Assembly (NCBI RefSeq): GCF_022410465.1
Contig: NZ_JAJSON010000004.1
Location: forward strand, 1-64,000
Length of the DNA stretch: 64,000 nt
Source of the DNA: Christiangramia crocea
Lineage (GTDB): Bacteria > Bacteroidota > Bacteroidia > Flavobacteriales > Flavobacteriaceae
Direction of reading: 5' to 3'
The notes under the pieces are model-generated. The model saw only the letters and a program-made list of their open reading frames with translations, did not search any database and was not told the DNA's origin. A program made the translations under genes and the position numbers. Positions within the stretch are counted from its first letter, which is position 1, and every line of letters starts with the position of its first letter. Below are positions 41,771 through 52,306 of the stretch, piece by piece.

Positions 41771-41798
41771 TTGGGCTTATCGAGATTCCTTATCTTTG
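41771..41798 (+). promoter_or_regulatory. promoter of the hpt-adk/obgE operon
   Basis: TTG (41771-41773) and TATCTTTG (41791-41798) are 17 nt apart; the TTG start codon at 41819 follows 20 nt later. Confidence 0.65.
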
Positions 41799-41818
41799 CC
41801 ACTTAAAATCTGAGAATT

Positions 41819-42931
41819 TTGATAAAGCTGCATGATCTTGAATTTGAACCTTTTATTTCAGAAAGGGAAATTACTAAGTCTATAGAGAGGATTTCAGATA
41901 AACTAAATCAGGATTTTGGTGATAAAAAGCCTGTTTTCATTGGGGTTCTGAATGGTTCTTTTATGTTTGCTTCCGAAGTGATAAAAAGATTTCACGGGGA
42001 TTGCGAAATCAGCTTCGTTAAACTGGGTTCTTATGAAGGAACCGAAAGCACAGGGAAGGTCAGGACTCTGCTTGGATTGAACCAGGAGCTTAAGGGAAGA
42101 AGCGTAATCTTGCTGGAAGATATTGTAGATACAGGGAACACACTGGTTGAGATCGATCAGATTTTAAAAAAGGCTGAGGTTGAGGATTACAAGGTGGTTA
42201 CCCTGTTCTATAAACCGGAAGCCTATAAAAAGAATATTCCGGTGGACTATATCGGAATGGAGATACCCAATAAATTTATTGTTGGTTTCGGTTTGGATTA
42301 TGATGGTCTTGGCCGTAATCTAACTCAAGTATATAAACGCAAAGAAAATAAAATGACAAATATTGTATTGTTTGGCCCTCCGGGTGCAGGCAAAGGAACT
42401 CAGGCGACAATTCTAAAGGATAAGTATAATCTTGTGCATATATCTACGGGAGATGTGTTCAGGTATAACATCAAAAATCAGACTGAACTTGGTCTTAGCG
42501 CCAAATCGTATATTGATAAGGGACAGCTGGTTCCCGATGAGGTTACCATTAATATGCTGAAAGCAGAAGTAGAGAAGAATGAAGGTGCCAATGGTTTTAT
42601 TTTTGACGGTTTTCCGCGTACTGAAACCCAGGCTGATGCTTTGGAGGATTTCCTTGAATCTAAAGGAACCATGGTGCATGCGATGATAGCTTTGGAAGTT
42701 GAGGATAATATATTGGTAGAGCGTTTGCTGGAAAGGGGAAAGACCTCGGGAAGACCTGATGATGCTGATGAAGACGTGATTAGAAATCGTATAAAGGTAT
42801 ATTACGACGAAACTGCTATTCTTAAGAATTATTATCAGAAGCAGGACAGATATTTTGGCGTAGACGGGGTAGGAAGTATTGAAGAGATCACTGAACGACT
42901 AAGTACTGTGATTGATAAGCTAATGAAATAA
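41819..42931 (+). CDS. in-frame fusion of hypoxanthine phosphoribosyltransferase and adenylate kinase
   Basis: Two complete enzymes are encoded in a single reading frame of 370 residues. Residues 1-178 form an HPRT-type phosphoribosyltransferase: FIGVLNGSFMF, then the PRPP loop VILLEDIVDTGNTL (96-109) and GFGLDYDGLGRN. Residues 179-370 form an adenylate kinase: P-loop GPPGAGKGT (186-194), AMP-site DGFPRT (263-268), and a short LID (ERGKTSGRPDDADE) without zinc ligands. No stop codon separates them; an ATG at 42353 follows an A-rich stretch (AAAGAAAATAAA) and could start a free Adk. The first start is a TTG at 41819, the only one that keeps the whole HPRT N-terminus. The product would salvage hypoxanthine/guanine and interconvert ATP, ADP and AMP. 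obgE follows 6 bp later. Confidence 0.92.
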   Translation: MIKLHDLEFEPFISEREITKSIERISDKLNQDFGDKKPVFIGVLNGSFMFASEVIKRFHGDCEISFVKLGSYEGTESTGKVRTLLGLNQELKGRSVILLEDIVDTGNTLVEIDQILKKAEVEDYKVVTLFYKPEAYKKNIPVDYIGMEIPNKFIVGFGLDYDGLGRNLTQVYKRKENKMTNIVLFGPPGAGKGTQATILKDKYNLVHISTGDVFRYNIKNQTELGLSAKSYIDKGQLVPDEVTINMLKAEVEKNEGANGFIFDGFPRTETQADALEDFLESKGTMVHAMIALEVEDNILVERLLERGKTSGRPDDADEDVIRNRIKVYYDETAILKNYYQKQDRYFGVDGVGSIEEITERLSTVIDKLMK

Positions 42932-42937
42932 AATAGA

Positions 42938-43945
42938 ATGACTGAAGGGAATTTTGTTGACTATGTGAAAATGCATGTTTTTTCCGGAAAAGGAGGGAAG
43001 GGCTCTGCTCATCTCCATCGTGAAAAGTACATTACAAAAGGAGGGCCTGATGGAGGCGATGGCGGTCGTGGAGGACATGTGATTATAAAAGGGAACAAAA
43101 ATCTCTGGACCTTATTCCATTTAAAATTCAAAAGGCACGTAAAGGCTGAGCATGGGGAAAACGGCGGAAAACAAAGAAGTACCGGTGCGGATGGTTCCGA
43201 TGAATATGTTGAGGTGCCTTTGGGTACAGTGATAAGAGATTCTGAAACTAATAAGATTATAAAGGAAATCACCGAAGATGGTCAGGAATTCATCGTTGCC
43301 GAAGGAGGAATGGGAGGTAGAGGAAACTGGCATTTTAAAAGTTCAACTAACCAGACGCCTCGTTATGCACAACCAGGAATAGATGGTAAGCAGATTGATA
43401 TTACTCTTGAATTAAAGGTTCTGGCAGATGTTGGACTTGTAGGATTCCCAAATGCCGGCAAATCGACCTTGCTTTCGGTTATTACGGCGGCGAAGCCAAA
43501 GATAGCCGATTATGAATTCACAACTTTAAAACCCAACCTTGGGATTGTGAAGTATCGGGATTTTAAAACTTTTGTGATCGCTGATATTCCCGGGATAATT
43601 GAAGGCGCAGCGGAAGGCAAAGGGCTTGGACACAGGTTTCTTAGGCATATTGAGAGAAATTCAACTTTGTTATTTCTTATTCCTGCAGATGCTCCTGATA
43701 TAGAGAAACAATATGAGATTCTTGTTGATGAACTTAGGCGTTATAATCCTGAGTTAATGGATAAGGATAGACTTATTGCTATCTCAAAAAGTGACCTTCT
43801 GGATGCTGAGCTAAAGGAAGAACTGGAAAAGGAACTGGACGATAATCTTGGGCTGCCTTATATTTTTATTTCCTCGGTTGCTCAAACTGGGCTTATCGAA
43901 TTAAAGGACAGATTGTGGCAAATGCTTAATAAAGAGGCTGTTTAA
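42938..43945 (+). CDS. obgE: Obg family GTPase
   Basis: The 335-residue protein has an N-terminal Gly-rich Obg fold ([15 protein letters not shown] to RGNWHF, about 18-132) and a GTPase domain with G1 GFPNAGKS (169-176), a switch I/G2 region [12 protein letters not shown]3 DIPGIIEGA and G4 SKSD in [10 protein letters not shown]. The OCT domain of some Obg proteins is absent, as is usual here. It acts in late 50S ribosome assembly and stress signalling. It is the third function in the purine-linked operon, 6 bp after hpt-adk; a short gap then leads to the DUF4136 lipoprotein. Confidence 0.95.
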
Positions 43946-44614: not shown

Positions 44615-46291
44615 TTAGTTTTCTTCTTCGTTCTCCATTTCCGGGTTCTCTTCCATATCCCTATTTGTAGAGTTTCCATTATTGGAAACTACAAATGTAC
44701 TTCTACGGTTTTTAGCGTATTGTTCGCTTGTGCATCCTGTTGGCTCCGTACAGTCATTTACTGGTCGGCTTTCACCAAATCCTTCAGAAGTTAGTCTGCT
44801 TCTGTCAATACCGTGTTCTACAAGGTAGTCAACAGTAGAAGCGGCTCTTCTCTCAGAAAGATCCATGTTATACTGGTCAGTTCCTCTTGCATCTGCATGA
44901 GACTCGACCTTTACTTTAATCTTCGGATAGTCGTTCATGTAAGTTACCACAGAATCAAGTACTGGTTCGGACTCAGGCTTGATGGTAGACTTGTCGAAGT
45001 CAAAGTAGATCTTGCTTCCATCGATAGGGATAATATCCTGACCACTGGTCTCATCAGTTACGGTTGGAGCTTCAATGATCTCATTCTCTTCTCTAACGAA
45101 CTGATAAAGGTTATCAGTGCCTCTTCTGTTTGAAGCAAAGAATCCTTCTTCGTCACCTTCCTTAATCACAAAAGCGAAATCGTCATGACCACTGTTGATA
45201 GAGGCTCCAAGGTTCTCAGTTTCTGAGAAGTCACCTTCAGTTCTGTAGATATCAAGATTTCCGAATCCCTGGTGTCCATCAGAAGCGAAATAAAGAATAT
45301 CTTCTTCACTAATGAAAGGGAATTGCTCTCTGTGAGCAGTGTTCACCCCGGGACCAAGATTTTGAGGAGAACCATAGGTTCCATCCTCATTTACATCTAC
45401 TACGTATAGATCGAAAGATCCACTACCACCTGGCATATCACTGGCAAAGTATAGTTTACTGCCGTCAGCGCTTAAGCTAGGATGTTCTACTGAATATTCT
45501 TCACTGCTAAATGGCAGTTTCTCGATATTTGTCCATTCTCCGTCTACTTTTTCGGCACGATAAAGGGAAATATGGGCAATACGAACATCTTCTTCATTCT
45601 TCACTCTGTCTGCATTGGTCCTGTCAAAGAACATTACATTTCCGTCCTGACTAAAAGTTGCAGAACTTTCATGTTGATCTGTATTGATCGCATCAGAGAA
45701 AAGAACGATATCGCTCATTTCTCCTTCATCGTTCATTGCAGCACTATACAGGTCCAAAGTTGGAAGTTTGTTCCATGGATAGATAGGTCGCTCCTGATTT
45801 CTTGTAGAAGCGAAAGCTACACGGTCCCCATAGAATGCAATTCCAAAATCTGAAGAAGACTGGTTATTCATTACCTGGTCATATTTGAATTTGTGAGGAA
45901 CAAGAGTGTCAAGCTCATCAGCAAATTCTTCATGGTTCCAGTTTTCACCAGTTACCTGGTTCATGTATTCATCAGCTTTTACATAGTTGCCAACTGCCAT
46001 AAGGGCGTGGGCATATTTGAACTGATATTCCGGTTCAATATTTCCGGAATGTCTCAGGAATAATAGCTCATATACTTCAGCTGCGTTTTGCATCTGGTTA
46101 GTATAGAAGTAGGAATCTCCTAGATTTTGAAGAACTTCCTGAGACTTGTCATTTACGTTCTCATAAGCATCGGCGGCATCAATATAGGCTGCCTGGGCGA
46201 AAAATTTATTTCCATCCCGTATATCCGACTTCTGAGCGAAGGCAGTAATGCTTATAGAAATTATTAAAAGTGTACTATATAATTTTTTCAT
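44615..46291 (-). CDS. OmpA family protein with TPR-like and PD40 beta-propeller repeats
   Basis: The 558-residue exported protein has a signal peptide (MKKLYSTLLIISISITAFAQ), a TPR-like helical part (about 25-125), PD40/TolB-like propeller blades (about 145-395: FSQDGNVMFFDRT, HPSLSADGSKLYFASDMPGGSGSFDLY, ILYFASDGHQGFGNLDIYR) and a C-terminal OmpA domain (about 420-535: YFDFDKSTIKPES, VESHADARGTDQYN, DLSERRAAS, NRRSTFVV). The OmpA domain binds peptidoglycan. It is the third gene of an operon with a PorP/SprF protein and a giant T9SS type B protein, the usual partners of such OmpA proteins in flavobacteria. The C-terminal tail is acidic. Confidence 0.93.
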   Translation of the reverse strand: MKKLYSTLLIISISITAFAQKSDIRDGNKFFAQAAYIDAADAYENVNDKSQEVLQNLGDSYFYTNQMQNAAEVYELLFLRHSGNIEPEYQFKYAHALMAVGNYVKADEYMNQVTGENWNHEEFADELDTLVPHKFKYDQVMNNQSSSDFGIAFYGDRVAFASTRNQERPIYPWNKLPTLDLYSAAMNDEGEMSDIVLFSDAINTDQHESSATFSQDGNVMFFDRTNADRVKNEEDVRIAHISLYRAEKVDGEWTNIEKLPFSSEEYSVEHPSLSADGSKLYFASDMPGGSGSFDLYVVDVNEDGTYGSPQNLGPGVNTAHREQFPFISEEDILYFASDGHQGFGNLDIYRTEGDFSETENLGASINSGHDDFAFVIKEGDEEGFFASNRRGTDNLYQFVREENEIIEAPTVTDETSGQDIIPIDGSKIYFDFDKSTIKPESEPVLDSVVTYMNDYPKIKVKVESHADARGTDQYNMDLSERRAASTVDYLVEHGIDRSRLTSEGFGESRPVNDCTEPTGCTSEQYAKNRRSTFVVSNNGNSTNRDMEENPEMENEEEN

Positions 46292-46303
46292 GTTAGTCGG
46301 GTT

Positions 46304-47236
46304 TTAGAAGAATCTCGGTGATTTGTCATATCCTTTTTTAAGTCCAAATAGATCAAGATCAAATAATAGCATGATCTCGTGTGATCCATCATCACTTAAA
46401 TCGTAGGTTGGATAATCGTAAGCATAACCTATCCTTAATGCAGGAGTGATTCTGAAGTTTATCAAACCGGTAATGCTCTCATCAAATCTATATCCTACGC
46501 CAGCCTCTAAACGATCGTAAAGAAGAACATTGGCATTCACATCTACTGAAAGAGGTGCCCCCTGAACTCCTCGGGCCATAAAAGATGGCTTGAGTTTAAA
46601 GTTATCACTGAGTCCAAAAACATATCCCCCAGTTAAAAAGTAGTGCACTTCTTCAGATCCTAGATCCTGAAGCCCTGAACTGTTTTCGATATGTTTTGAT
46701 GTGAACAGGTTAGGAGCAGAAACACCCAAATAATGCTTGTCTCCAAACCAAAATGCACCAACTCCGAATACAGGAAAAATCTCATTTTGGTTCTCAAAAG
46801 CGGGATCGTTAGGATTGTTAAGGTCTAATCCGGCAAGATTAGCATCCCAGGTTGTTAAACCAGCTTTAGCACCAAATGATAATTTAGTGGTCTCTCCGGC
46901 AGGAATAACATAAGCAAAATCTGCGGTTATGTTATTCTCCTTAACCCAGCCTCCAATTTCATCGTGTACAACGGTTAGGCCTAATTCCACACGCTCACTT
47001 ACTGGAGTGTGAGCGAAGAAGTTTAGGGTGCGAGGTGCACCTTCAACATCTACCCACTGAGCTCTATAGATTCCACCCATGTTCAGCATACCAGGGTCAT
47101 CGGTAGCATAAGCCGGGTTGATAACACTCATGTTATACATGTACTGAGTGAAAAGCGGATCCTGTTGAGACATTCCTTTTATGGAGAAAAGGATAATGCC
47201 TGCGAATATTAAATATTTTGTGATTATTTTTTTCAT
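46304..47236 (-). CDS. PorP/SprF family type IX secretion system outer-membrane protein
   Basis: The 310-residue barrel protein starts with a signal peptide (ending KGMSQQ) and the PorP/SprF opening DPLFTQYMYNMSVINPAYA, and continues with repeated amphipathic strands such as FSFGAKAGL and GVGYRFDESI. SprF-like proteins are needed for secretion of the adhesin encoded next to them, in F. johnsoniae SprB. Its position 12 bp before the OmpA gene and 24 bp after the giant protein gene supports a dedicated export/anchoring module. Confidence 0.92.
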   Translation of the reverse strand: MKKIITKYLIFAGIILFSIKGMSQQDPLFTQYMYNMSVINPAYATDDPGMLNMGGIYRAQWVDVEGAPRTLNFFAHTPVSERVELGLTVVHDEIGGWVKENNITADFAYVIPAGETTKLSFGAKAGLTTWDANLAGLDLNNPNDPAFENQNEIFPVFGVGAFWFGDKHYLGVSAPNLFTSKHIENSSGLQDLGSEEVHYFLTGGYVFGLSDNFKLKPSFMARGVQGAPLSVDVNANVLLYDRLEAGVGYRFDESITGLINFRITPALRIGYAYDYPTYDLSDDGSHEIMLLFDLDLFGLKKGYDKSPRFF

Positions 47237-47260
47237 TACTTTCTCGTGTTTATCCTTTTA

Positions 47261-50200
47261 TTATCTACTTAAGTATACTTTTCCTCTTCTTGGAGCAGTA
47301 ACTCCATCATTGAAGTCGAGGAGATAGAAATAAACTCCAACAGGCAATACGTCATCGCCTAAAGTACCTGATTGGGTGGCGGCTGTGCCATCCCATTCCG
47401 GGGTGTTGGCGTTTCCTTTGTATACTACATCTCCCCAACGGTTGTAGATTTCAATAGTATAATTAGGATATTCTCTTTCTATATTTTCGATATCGAATAT
47501 ATCGTTCATTCCGTCTCCATTAGGAGAAATACCTTCAGGGAACAGTAATGGACAATCTTCGATAGTAACGGTTACAGCAAGTCTATCTGAACTATCGCAG
47601 TCTGTTTCCGAATCATACAATGATGCATAATAAGTAACTCCATCCTGCAGGGCAGTTCCTGTACTCAATGGCTCCATACTATCTTCAGAATCATACCAGG
47701 TAATATTAGCTGTCTGATCTAGAGAAGCTGTTAAATCTGCAATTGTTGCATCATCATATTCACAGAATTCAGGATTAGTATCATCTGTAGTTGGTGTGCC
47801 AGGGTCTGATATAGTCACTTCAACTTCAGCTGCATCAGATTCACATCCGGCATCATTAGTTTGAGTAACATAATAAGTACCTGCAACCAGTTCTTCTTCT
47901 GCTGTAAGCATCATAGAGAGTGCTTCATCAGTATAGAAAGTCAGGCTGTCATCATCACCCAAAAGATCGGCTCCTGTTGGCGATTGGATCGCACAGAAAG
48001 GAACAGTATCCGCTACATCCGGAGCGTCCGGAGCTGCATTGACCACAACTGTAATTTCTACTGAATCATCCCCACAATCGTTGACTGCAGCAACTGTATA
48101 AATAATAGTATAAGTATCAGCATCAAATTCAGCCGGGTTCATCATACCACCTTCAATTTCTTCCCCGTCAAGAGTGAATGTTCCATCCATATCAGCATCT
48201 GCTGAAATTGCATTTTCAAAAAGATTGATTTCTGCATCCGTAGTACATACTGTTAATGGATTCTCTGGAGAGGTGATTTGTTCACCTGCGTTAGCTGCAT
48301 CTGATATTGTAAGAGTGAAAGTTGAAGAACCTTCAGTACAATTAGCATCGTCTTCAATTGTATAGGTAATATCATAAGTGTCCGGATCCAAACTGGATGG
48401 GTCTAATGTTCCATCTTCATAACCCTCAAAAGCTCCGGAAGCATCCATTCCATCAGGTAGATACGAGAATAGATCAACTTCTGAATCATTCTGGCATACC
48501 GGATCTGGATCTGGTATTGCGCCTATATCTATAGTCTCAAGCTCTAAGATTTCAACTGTAAGATCTACGAATGCTGAACATTCTCCTTGAGTTACTGTGT
48601 ATCTAGTAGTGAAATCACCAGTTTTGGTAACGTTGTTGTACCTATTAATCAACTCCTGAATAGTAGGTTCAAACTGACCATCCTGAGGAACATCATCTGC
48701 TAACATATCAAGGTAAAAAGCTCTTACTGTTGAAGCAGGATTAGGAAATAATTCGTCAACATTGCTTTCGCAAATCGGAATTCTATCTGTATCCGCTTCT
48801 ATAGTAAAGCTATCATCAACAGTTATGGTAAATTCAACGCTGTCTTCTGTTCCGTCTAATACGCAGGAAGCTGAATCATCAACTGTATAAGTAATATTAT
48901 AGCCAGTTCCATTATCGCCGAGGGAGGAATCAAACTCTCCATCAATAACGCCTTCTCCTGTAAAGGTTCCTCCAGGTGTAGCATCGGCGCTTAGATAGTT
49001 GGCTAGAATAACCATCCCACTATCAGAACATACTGTAAAGCTGTCAATGTTTCCGGCATTTGCTGCTTCCTCGGAGAATACTTCAATCTCGATAGCTACA
49101 GAATCCTCGCAATCTCCACTACCTAAAGTATAGGTAGTTTCATAAGTTTGAACAGCTTCTTCGTTATAGTCTTCCATTAAATCTGCTACAGAAGGAGCAA
49201 AAGTTCCAGCTGAAGAATAGTTTGATCCTATAAGACCAGCTAAATAATCTGTTAGATCATCTTCATTATCAGGAAAATCATCAACACAAACTCTTCTTGT
49301 AATAGTTGGGCCTAATTCCCTGCTTCCGGTTACAGTAATTTGGAATTCTGTAGAATCACTGGTTCCTGGAGTAACACAGTCTCCTGAGGCATCTACTTCA
49401 TAGGTGATGGTATAAGTATCTACTCCAATTGAAGGATCGAATTCATTATCACTTACACCTTGTCCTGAGAAGGTTCCACCAGTAGTGGCACCAGAGCCAA
49501 CTAAATAATCGTTTAGGTCTATATTTCCGTCTCCAATGCAAACGGTTCGAGGGGTTATTTCACCGGCTTCAGCATCCTGAGTCGGAGTTATCGTGATCTC
49601 AAGATTGATAGCACCATCACTACAGGTGTTGGTGGAAATCGTCTCGTATGTAAAATTAAAAGTTTCAGGATCTGAAGTTGGATTTTCTATATAGTCTGCC
49701 ATTCTTTGGGCTTCAAGAGTTGGATCTGGATCAAACTGCATCGGATTCACAGTTTCAATTCCAGTTTCATCAAGAATACCTAGGATATATGCATATCCTT
49801 CACTTGGATTTGAAATCAAACTTTGCGCTTCTGTCACACATAGGCTTCTGCTAATATTAGCAGAGATTGGTGATTCTTCAACAGTGATTTCAAATTCTGC
49901 AAAATCTTCTCCATCAACACAAGGGACAGAGCTGTTAACTGTATATGTGATCGTATAAACTCCGGCACCATCAACTTGTGAAGGATCAAAAGTATTATTC
50001 AATACACCTTCTCCGGTAAAAGTTCCACCTTCCTGCGCATCAGGATCGTTATTAGTTAAAGTAGTTAAATCTAACGGTTCATCGCTAGTACATAAAGGTG
50101 TAGGGTAATCATCAAAGCTTCCTGCCTCTGCTGCTTCTCCTGGAGTTACTGTGTAGCTCAACAAGATAGAATCAGGGCATCCATCAACTGTTACGGAGTA

Positions 50201-52306
50201 GGTAGTTGCAAAGGTTTGAAAGTTATCAGCATCATAGCTTTCAATGATGCTTTGAATAGAGGGATCAAATTCTCCTCCTTCAGGAGCACCAGGAATCAAG
50301 TCCATATAAAGCTGGATTACATCTTCAGGAATCTGATTAACAAGTCCCGGTATATCATCATTACATAAAGGGACATTGGTTACACCCGTACTTAGTGCAT
50401 ATGAATCCAGATCTGCACCATTATTGACTGTGAATTCAAATTCTGCTGTATCTGGGCAGGGTTCTCCTTCGCCAACTGTATAGGTTGAATTAAAAGGTCC
50501 TTCGGAGCCTGCATTAATATCATTTGTGATAGAGGTTAAATTTGAAAATTGCCCTCCCTCATCAGCATCATCACTTAACAAAGAAGTTAAGTAATCTTCT
50601 ACCTCTGTTTCAGTTACGGTTTCTGAAAACTCAGCACGGCAAACTTCGTTACCTTCGGTGTTACTTTCACCAGCATTATAATCTGGAATAATTTCAATCG
50701 AAATATCTACTGAAGATGTACAACCATTTTCAGTTGTAATAGAATAGGTCGTAGAGAAGGCTCTTGTTCCATTACCATATGAAGTAACAACCTCTCCTAA
50801 GGTCATGTTTTCAAAATCCCCATCCTGAGGAACACTAGGATCCAGTTGCTCCAGAAAGATTTCTCTTGCCAAAGCTTCATACATTGTTGTTTGTGCAAGT
50901 CTTGAATCTATTTCAGATTGACAAAATATTCCATCTCCAATCTGCACTCCTAAATCTTCTGCTTCGTCAACTTCAAACGCCAAATCAGCACTATCTTCAC
51001 AAGGTTGGCCGGCCCCAACGGTATAAGTTGAACTGAACGGACCTTGTAGTCCATTATTGATATCATTTGTAATTGAAGGAACATTGGAAAAATCTCCTCC
51101 TGGGTCATTACCAGATAGAAGAGATGTTAAATAATCTTCAACTTCCGTCTCAGTTACTGTTTCAGAGAATTCAGCACGACAAACAACGTTGCCCTCAGTG
51201 TTATTTTCTCCGGCATTGTATGAGGGATTTACATTGATAGTAAAACTAACATCATCAGTACATTCTTCCGGAGAGGTAAAAGTTCCTGTAAACTCCAGAA
51301 GATTGTCTCCAGCTTCAAAGTCGTTAATAACTGAGGTTAAGGTTGGATTAAAAGTAACCGTATTGTCTTCAAATAATCCTGGTCTCGGTGGATCTATAAA
51401 GTTAGATAGGATAGTTGCTGCCGAAGTGCCACTATTTATAAGGTCTTGTAAATCATCCCGGCAAATTTCACCATTTACAGGTCCTCCGGCATCAAAAGAA
51501 ACCACGGTTACCTGTACAGCTGTTCTTTCTTCACTTTCACATGGAGGGCCATCAACTGGTACTATTTGGGTAGCCCAGTAGGTCTCGCCATCCTGGACAA
51601 CATAATCATCAGATAAAGCAGGTTCAGAGGTTTGTGTTCGGTACCACATATTTACACCTTCAGCTTCAAGCTCACTGACGGTAGTGCCTTCACAAACTGT
51701 TTGAGGGGAGGTTGCTGCTGGCGCAGGTGCATCCACAGGTTCGAATCGAACAGGTTTTCTTCTTGTTTCACATCCTGAACCATCACTATAGCCAACATAA
51801 TAATTGCCTACAGTAATAGGTTCGGTGTCATTTAGAGGGGTTTCCTCTGCAGTATATCTTGTTTGAAAAACTTCTAAGGTATAGCCACTCGGTGCTGGTT
51901 CAGCATCAATAGCTTCCTTTAGGTCTCCTACATCATAGGGACCTCCACCGCTACAGGGTGTGAAAAAGTCATCCTGAACCACGGGAGCTGCAGTTGGTCC
52001 TGTAATTGTCACAGTGACCATTCTGTCACTCCTAGGAGTTGTACAGTCTGGGGAATCAGCATAATAATCCTCCCCGTCAATCAATAATTCATCAGCTGGG
52101 AGTGGTTGACTGGAGGTTTCATCTGCGTACCATGTGGCACCCATAGGTTGAAGGTCTGAAACTGTGTACAGGGCATTACAAAAACTTTGCGCTGGATCAG
52201 TAACAGTTGGACATTGCCCATAGATAGAGGGGATTGTTCCAACAAACAATAGAAAGGAAAAAAAGAACCATTTGATTCTTCTTCCCCTTAAAGTAAAATT
52301 TTGCAT
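47261..52306 (-). CDS. giant repeat surface protein with T9SS type B (gliding motility-associated) sorting domain
   Basis: The 1681-residue product has a signal peptide (about 1-30) and a modular extracellular body. Three N-terminal and two C-terminal modules with a (G)xYY(V/A) strand flank about 13 central modules of 75-105 residues, most with a pair of Cys: one class carries GGTFxGxGVxxxxFDPS, the other GxFxPxxxxxxxxY...F.TTY. The last 90 residues begin FPEGISPNGDGMNDIF and include IYNRWGDVVY, PVGVYFYLLDF and GKVYLSR, the CHU_C/type B sorting signature. It is exported by the T9SS with help from the neighbouring PorP/SprF and OmpA proteins. A function as an adhesin or motility-associated filament is inferred; its ligand is unknown. 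No catalytic domain is seen. Confidence 0.92.
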   Translation of the reverse strand: MQNFTLRGRRIKWFFFSFLLFVGTIPSIYGQCPTVTDPAQSFCNALYTVSDLQPMGATWYADETSSQPLPADELLIDGEDYYADSPDCTTPRSDRMVTVTITGPTAAPVVQDDFFTPCSGGGPYDVGDLKEAIDAEPAPSGYTLEVFQTRYTAEETPLNDTEPITVGNYYVGYSDGSGCETRRKPVRFEPVDAPAPAATSPQTVCEGTTVSELEAEGVNMWYRTQTSEPALSDDYVVQDGETYWATQIVPVDGPPCESEERTAVQVTVVSFDAGGPVNGEICRDDLQDLINSGTSAATILSNFIDPPRPGLFEDNTVTFNPTLTSVINDFEAGDNLLEFTGTFTSPEECTDDVSFTINVNPSYNAGENNTEGNVVCRAEFSETVTETEVEDYLTSLLSGNDPGGDFSNVPSITNDINNGLQGPFSSTYTVGAGQPCEDSADLAFEVDEAEDLGVQIGDGIFCQSEIDSRLAQTTMYEALAREIFLEQLDPSVPQDGDFENMTLGEVVTSYGNGTRAFSTTYSITTENGCTSSVDISIEIIPDYNAGESNTEGNEVCRAEFSETVTETEVEDYLTSLLSDDADEGGQFSNLTSITNDINAGSEGPFNSTYTVGEGEPCPDTAEFEFTVNNGADLDSYALSTGVTNVPLCNDDIPGLVNQIPEDVIQLYMDLIPGAPEGGEFDPSIQSIIESYDADNFQTFATTYSVTVDGCPDSILLSYTVTPGEAAEAGSFDDYPTPLCTSDEPLDLTTLTNNDPDAQEGGTFTGEGVLNNTFDPSQVDGAGVYTITYTVNSSVPCVDGEDFAEFEITVEESPISANISRSLCVTEAQSLISNPSEGYAYILGILDETGIETVNPMQFDPDPTLEAQRMADYIENPTSDPETFNFTYETISTNTCSDGAINLEITITPTQDAEAGEITPRTVCIGDGNIDLNDYLVGSGATTGGTFSGQGVSDNEFDPSIGVDTYTITYEVDASGDCVTPGTSDSTEFQITVTGSRELGPTITRRVCVDDFPDNEDDLTDYLAGLIGSNYSSAGTFAPSVADLMEDYNEEAVQTYETTYTLGSGDCEDSVAIEIEVFSEEAANAGNIDSFTVCSDSGMVILANYLSADATPGGTFTGEGVIDGEFDSSLGDNGTGYNITYTVDDSASCVLDGTEDSVEFTITVDDSFTIEADTDRIPICESNVDELFPNPASTVRAFYLDMLADDVPQDGQFEPTIQELINRYNNVTKTGDFTTRYTVTQGECSAFVDLTVEILELETIDIGAIPDPDPVCQNDSEVDLFSYLPDGMDASGAFEGYEDGTLDPSSLDPDTYDITYTIEDDANCTEGSSTFTLTISDAANAGEQITSPENPLTVCTTDAEINLFENAISADADMDGTFTLDGEEIEGGMMNPAEFDADTYTIIYTVAAVNDCGDDSVEITVVVNAAPDAPDVADTVPFCAIQSPTGADLLGDDDSLTFYTDEALSMMLTAEEELVAGTYYVTQTNDAGCESDAAEVEVTISDPGTPTTDDTNPEFCEYDDATIADLTASLDQTANITWYDSEDSMEPLSTGTALQDGVTYYASLYDSETDCDSSDRLAVTVTIEDCPLLFPEGISPNGDGMNDIFDIENIEREYPNYTIEIYNRWGDVVYKGNANTPEWDGTAATQSGTLGDDVLPVGVYFYLLDFNDGVTAPRRGKVYLSR
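50425..51223. repeat. near-duplicate module pair inside the giant surface protein gene
   Basis: Two copies of a module of about 85 residues (approximately 50425-50690 and 50970-51223) share long identical stretches, such as CRAEFSETVTETEVEDYLTS, and TEGN. A distinct module separates them. The copies are diverged at the third part, so this is a duplication with later drift. Confidence 0.7.

Follow-up and report, generated by a model that had tools for sequence, protein, structure and literature searches.

The window analyzed here is a stretch of 64,000 nucleotides from Christiangramia crocea (contig NZ_JAJSON010000004.1, positions 1 to 64,000), in which a single uninterrupted open reading frame encodes an HPRT part followed by an adenylate kinase (Adk) part with no stop codon between them (Table 1). 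An in-frame stop lies at 41804, and neither ATG nor GTG occurs in frame from there to the TTG at which the gene starts. The junction of the two parts reads AAA GAA AAT AAA ATG, the ATG being in frame. The divergent purK gene is separated from hpt-adk by 122 bases as read off the sequence, and the next downstream frame, which we take to be obgE from its sequence features, is probably carried on the same transcript as hpt-adk. Farther downstream on the reverse strand (44615-52306), three consecutive genes presumably encode a protein with an OmpA-like C-terminus, a PorP/SprF-like membrane protein, and a 1681-amino acid repetitive protein with a gliding-type C-terminus.

Table 1. Features of the hpt-adk locus, with positions numbered along the window.
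Feature	Position	Strand	Basis and remarks
Promoter-like site TTG-N17-TATCTTTG 5' of hpt-adk	41771..41798	+	Pattern match; putative function
hpt-adk fused gene	41819..42931	+	370 amino acids, TTG start, 41.9 kDa predicted
HPRT part, residues 1-178, ending in a short linker	41819..42352	+	Pfam and NCBIfam matches, structure model
Proposed internal translation initiation region (A-rich linker codons, ATG, first adk codons)	42329..42364	+	Context score, low predicted pairing
Adk part, residues 179-370; proposed free Adk of 192 amino acids, 21.6 kDa	42353..42931	+	Profile matches; ATG in 203 of 206 fused loci
obgE (ObgE-type GTPase)	42938..43945	+	Open reading frame, 6 bases 3' of the hpt-adk stop

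Domains of the fusion protein

The Pfam models Pribosyltran and ADK matched residues 17-161 and 184-343, respectively. Matches were also obtained with the NCBIfam equivalog models for HPRT (TIGR01203, residues 12-173, 153.3 bits against a cut-off of 150) and adk (NF001381, residues 181-367, 235.5 bits against a cut-off of 187), and PF00406 scored 170.9 bits on the Adk part (cut-off: 26.8). The translated HPRT part contains EDIVDTG, presumably the PRPP-binding motif, and residues E99, D100, D103, G105, and T107 (numbering from residue 2) were invariant across 37 fusions. A first-pass annotation of the DNA had described an in-frame fusion of two complete enzymes; this description is borne out by the one 370-amino acid frame with both profiles above their cut-offs, and the HPRT and Adk parts are both apparently complete.

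As in the HPRT family (TIGR01203; 4rqa, 4lyy, 1g9s), the first domain is complete, scores above the curated cut-off and has the HPRT fold in the structure model, but it carries an in-frame Adk at its C-terminus. The second part resembles the short-LID bacterial adenylate kinases (NF001381; 2cdn, 1p4s) in being complete, in having no long LID insertion, and in possessing a P-loop and the GFPR motif, and differs from them in that its N-terminus continues from HPRT and the ordinary start codon is now residue 179. The model of the fusion comprises two confident domains (mean pLDDT 87.4, pTM 0.55) linked by a few residues that adopt no regular structure, after which strand 1 of Adk follows with the junction Met just before it. 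At a pTM of 0.55 the mutual orientation of the domains is uncertain, and no solved chain spanning both parts was found among the 60 and 50 chains listed.

Within the 32 contigs of the own genome PF00406 had a single match at E-values up to 0.001, the sole Adk-family match, and PF00156 had nine matches. When the fusion protein was used as the query, one other phosphoribosyltransferase was recovered (L002:1504-2001, contig C2), which looks PyrR-like to us; since this sole other match is just 21% identical to the HPRT part, a second HPRT in this genome is unlikely.

Fused and split loci among relatives

The comparison search provided 289 classified loci once 10 stretches of the own genome, 5 repeat fetches, and the unrelated locus L002 had been set aside. 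The two genes were fused in 206 loci and adjacent in separate frames in 63, while in 20 adk was present and no hpt was found nearby; because similarity to the fusion was the basis of collection, the share of 206 in 289 does not reflect natural abundance, and the loci are related to one another so that their counts are not independent. The expectation that relatives carry related fusions is thereby confirmed at the sequence level. An assembly error as the source of the fusion was rejected, as 206 loci have it.

The closest named records belonged to Gramella/Christiangramia (93% identity). In a sample of the family a match at E-values up to 1e-100 was present in 172 of 237 genera and in 276 of 397 genomes, the latter count covering not only fused genes but also pairs interrupted by an in-frame stop and three or more matches to Adk alone. 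All but one of the 206 fused loci came from Flavobacteriaceae or unplaced flavobacterial records, the exception (L148) being from another family of the order, and the hpt-adk fusion is common in Flavobacteriaceae. Outside this family the loci read were split but for one fused locus (f13), often with the stop 3-12 bases before the ATG. On a tree of 269 rows at least 15 changes between the fused and the split state were counted, with FastTree and IQ-TREE alike.

Within Christiangramia, hpt and adk are separated by an in-frame TAA three bases 5' of the ATG in three loci (L034, L035, and L159) and by shifted frames in three others (L083, L084, and L088, with gaps of 4, 2, and 5 bases). Four differing split configurations were thus seen in this genus, each with the ATG intact and always with AAAATGACAAAT or a near equivalent left in place. 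Such splits could persist only if translation of adk can begin at this ATG, which must accordingly function at least where a stop codon is close by. A tree of 19 rows that included Zunongwangia had at least four fused/split changes, gain and loss not being separable on it.

Other arrangements were seen among the split loci. In family f11 (L128-L140, L142-L147) an in-frame stop codon, TAG or TAA, precedes the adk start by exactly 3 bases in nearly all loci read, and a sense codon replacing that single stop would fuse the two genes. In Psychroflexus and genus g4 (L097, L115, and L116) the two genes are unfused and lie in different frames with an overlap of 8 bases.

The internal ATG and its context

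The codon of the proposed free-Adk start is ATG in 203 of the 206 fused loci (195 of 198 groups after clustering at 95% identity), and split relatives keep the same ATG as the start of adk. On the tree this Met underwent 3 amino-acid changes; the three codons ahead of it underwent 47, 71, and 64, and the codon after it 22. The median over 361 alignment columns was 16 changes, 103 columns had three or fewer, and another Met column was invariant; the junction Met belongs to the conserved quarter of positions, though it ends an otherwise free linker.

Start contexts were scored using a matrix derived from 255,588 bases of the own genome, made up of the window and ten stretches, in which 81 starts had been chosen heuristically; its half-out AUC was 0.92. 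With this matrix the ATG at 42353 scored 3.75. Among 596 internal ATGs, 5 attain this value, which also equals or exceeds the scores of 30% of the 81 starts. Context separated the 203 junction ATGs from the 1037 in-frame ATGs found elsewhere in these genes with an AUC of 0.988, and in 192 of the 203 fused loci the junction ATG had the highest score of its own frame (35 expected). A hydrophilic linker is A-rich in any case, for which a test of synonymous choice controls partly: in 94% of loci the codons used at the junction gave a more start-like context than their synonymous recodings did, the mean percentile being 0.83 at the junction versus 0.44 at other ATGs. Predicted pairing was 0.37 at the junction versus 0.56 at control positions, and of 90 sampled loci 88 had a junction value under the control mean; the region of the ATG at 42353 ranked seventh lowest among 331 positions. 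Fused junctions and the 63 split adk starts had similar context scores (6.15 versus 6.08, p 0.89).

According to Baez et al. (2019, PMC6847099), adenines at -3, -6, -12, and -13 are positive for Bacteroidetes initiation without a Shine-Dalgarno sequence. The window site is like the starts described there in having A at -3, -6, and -12, and unlike them in lying inside a coding sequence and having C at -13. About 80% of the fused loci have A at -12 and -13, and 46-48% have it at -3 and -6, where C is the chief alternative, while own-genome starts have A at -3 and -6 in 45-46%. The proposal that the ATG at 42353 looks like a start codon was upheld by its conservation, its initiation-like context, and its low predicted pairing, and as a proposed internal start it is well supported by comparison.

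The ATG and its context could also be decaying remnants from an ancestor in which hpt and adk were separate genes of one operon, as the prevalence of split loci with a nearby stop outside Flavobacteriaceae would suit. The linker codons 5' of the ATG, however, underwent 70-85 codon-level changes on the tree versus 3 at the ATG, and the context in fused loci is undecayed relative to that of split genes, which leaves this origin highly improbable.

The 5' start and a proposed dual-start gene

The internal start had been put forward as the point most worth attention. That it is start-like and conserved stands; the unusual start is the TTG or GTG at the 5' end. The first-pass annotation also saw in the arrangement a putative purine control point. 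Among 269 loci the codon aligned with residue 1 was TTG in 78, GTG in 62, and ATG in 46. No ATG occurs in codons -8 to +4 in 124 of the 206 fused loci (63 GTG, 61 TTG) and in 14 of the 63 split loci (11 TTG, 3 GTG), a further 3 of the latter being without any start. Of the 269 loci, 220 yielded a downstream obgE, which starts with ATG in 211; the new observation, judged from the codons, is that the 5' start of hpt is often weak, unlike that of obgE. Split loci of Christiangramia and Zunongwangia retain TTG at the hpt start. On independent pairs the association of fusion with a weak 5' start had the expected direction (2.8 of 10 pairs, versus 0.1 opposite) and was not significant (median p 0.25).

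The Bacteroidetes -33/-7 promoter consensus is given as TTTG/TANNTTTG in PMC6847099, and the TTG-N17-TATCTTTG site upstream of hpt-adk fits it as a putative promoter. In relatives too, the TTG/GTG hpt start and a promoter box of the TANNTTTG type next to it are conserved. A relaxed promoter-like site (TTG-N19-TATGTTTG, 41940-41969) also lies inside hpt, and free Adk might accordingly be translated from an mRNA of its own, transcribed from a separate promoter there, and not by initiation within a common message. Such relaxed sites were found inside hpt in 26 of the 206 fused loci, below the 35 expected from synonymous recoding, and the stricter TTTG/TANNTTTG pair in none of 203 fused loci within 250 bases of the ATG. 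A promoter inside hpt was rejected, as the sites are not enriched, and this source of free Adk, which would still require the ATG at 42353 as its start, has a negligible chance of being correct.

We favor, as the likely reading of these sequence comparisons, a dual-start fusion gene that gives HPRT-Adk from a weak 5' start and extra free Adk from an internal AUG. Transcription from the promoter at about 41771-41798 would produce an mRNA with a short leader, on which the weak UUG at 41819 would yield some 370-amino acid fusion protein, and the stronger, unstructured, A-rich AUG at 42353, if ribosomes use it, additional free Adk of 192 amino acids. The supply of the essential Adk would thus be kept above that of HPRT despite the one shared frame, a direction of the dose ratio, and a reason for it, that we infer.

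It is possible, although we hold it with some doubt, that such a dual start extends across Flavobacteriaceae, a weak UUG/GUG and a strong internal AUG setting how much HPRT-Adk is made relative to free Adk. Since initiation at the internal AUG would persist, one-base changes could then flip the genes between fused and split, near-reversibly and without loss of Adk. The fused product may, in that same reading, be an HPRT oligomer decorated with Adk.

CheA is made in a long and a short form from an internal in-frame start. An internal in-frame start within Cas8 is likewise reported to give a full-length and a short protein, Cas11 (PMC11899642). If the internal AUG is used, hpt-adk would share with these two systems one frame, two N-termini, and a common C-terminal part; it would differ in that its short product would be an entire essential enzyme, and its two parts are found either fused or split among close relatives. 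A literature search, with most subscription journals outside its coverage, found no matching account of the fusion.

A gene fusion is usually taken to prove that its two enzymes work as a unit. Use of the internal start would mean that the fusion hides an operon and that the essential enzyme is still made alone, and it would explain the interchange of fused and split states among close species. The locus would then offer a natural test system, without Shine-Dalgarno signals, for the choice of internal initiation and for the birth and dissolution of gene fusions.

Fused loci without the internal ATG

Three fused loci have GTT (L218), ATA (L233), or ACC (L258) in place of the ATG, encoding Val, Ile, and Thr. 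Their genomes are 99, 88, and 95% complete, respectively, the genus-mates of all three lineages keep the internal ATG, and the losses may be single-base errors in draft genomes. A second adk was sought in these genomes and in three genus-mates at E-values up to 1e-4, and one Adk match was found in each. With three lineages lacking the ATG and no second adk found, free Adk is not strictly required there. The claim that one mRNA could give both a fusion and a free Adk thus retains its start-like ATG and is qualified by these lineages; free Adk is probably favored, not indispensable.

That the fusion alone can suffice in these lineages agrees with an account in which the full-length protein is the sole product, the Met being kept for its side chain at strand 1 of Adk and the A-rich linker serving as a flexible hydrophilic peptide. 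The three replacements themselves indicate that Met is not structurally obligatory, although its place right before strand 1 in the model, the single change on the tree of the Asn two residues past it, and a conservation like that of 103 of the 361 columns, with the invariant Met column among the alignment, make a structural role possible. A protein constraint would not predict the synonymous codon choice or the low mRNA structure, and in split relatives adk starts at the same codon in the same context; we therefore regard a sole full-length product as unlikely.

The context score of L233 is 5.68 despite its ATA, so a good context score alone is no proof of use. All three loci, and their genus-mates, have ATG at the 5' start, which fits a dual start, with the limit that these are three cases and that the ATG is common to the genus. 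As to alternative upstream starts, L218 has none within fifteen codons, L233 has a TTG 15 codons upstream, and L258 has an in-frame GTG 5 codons upstream.
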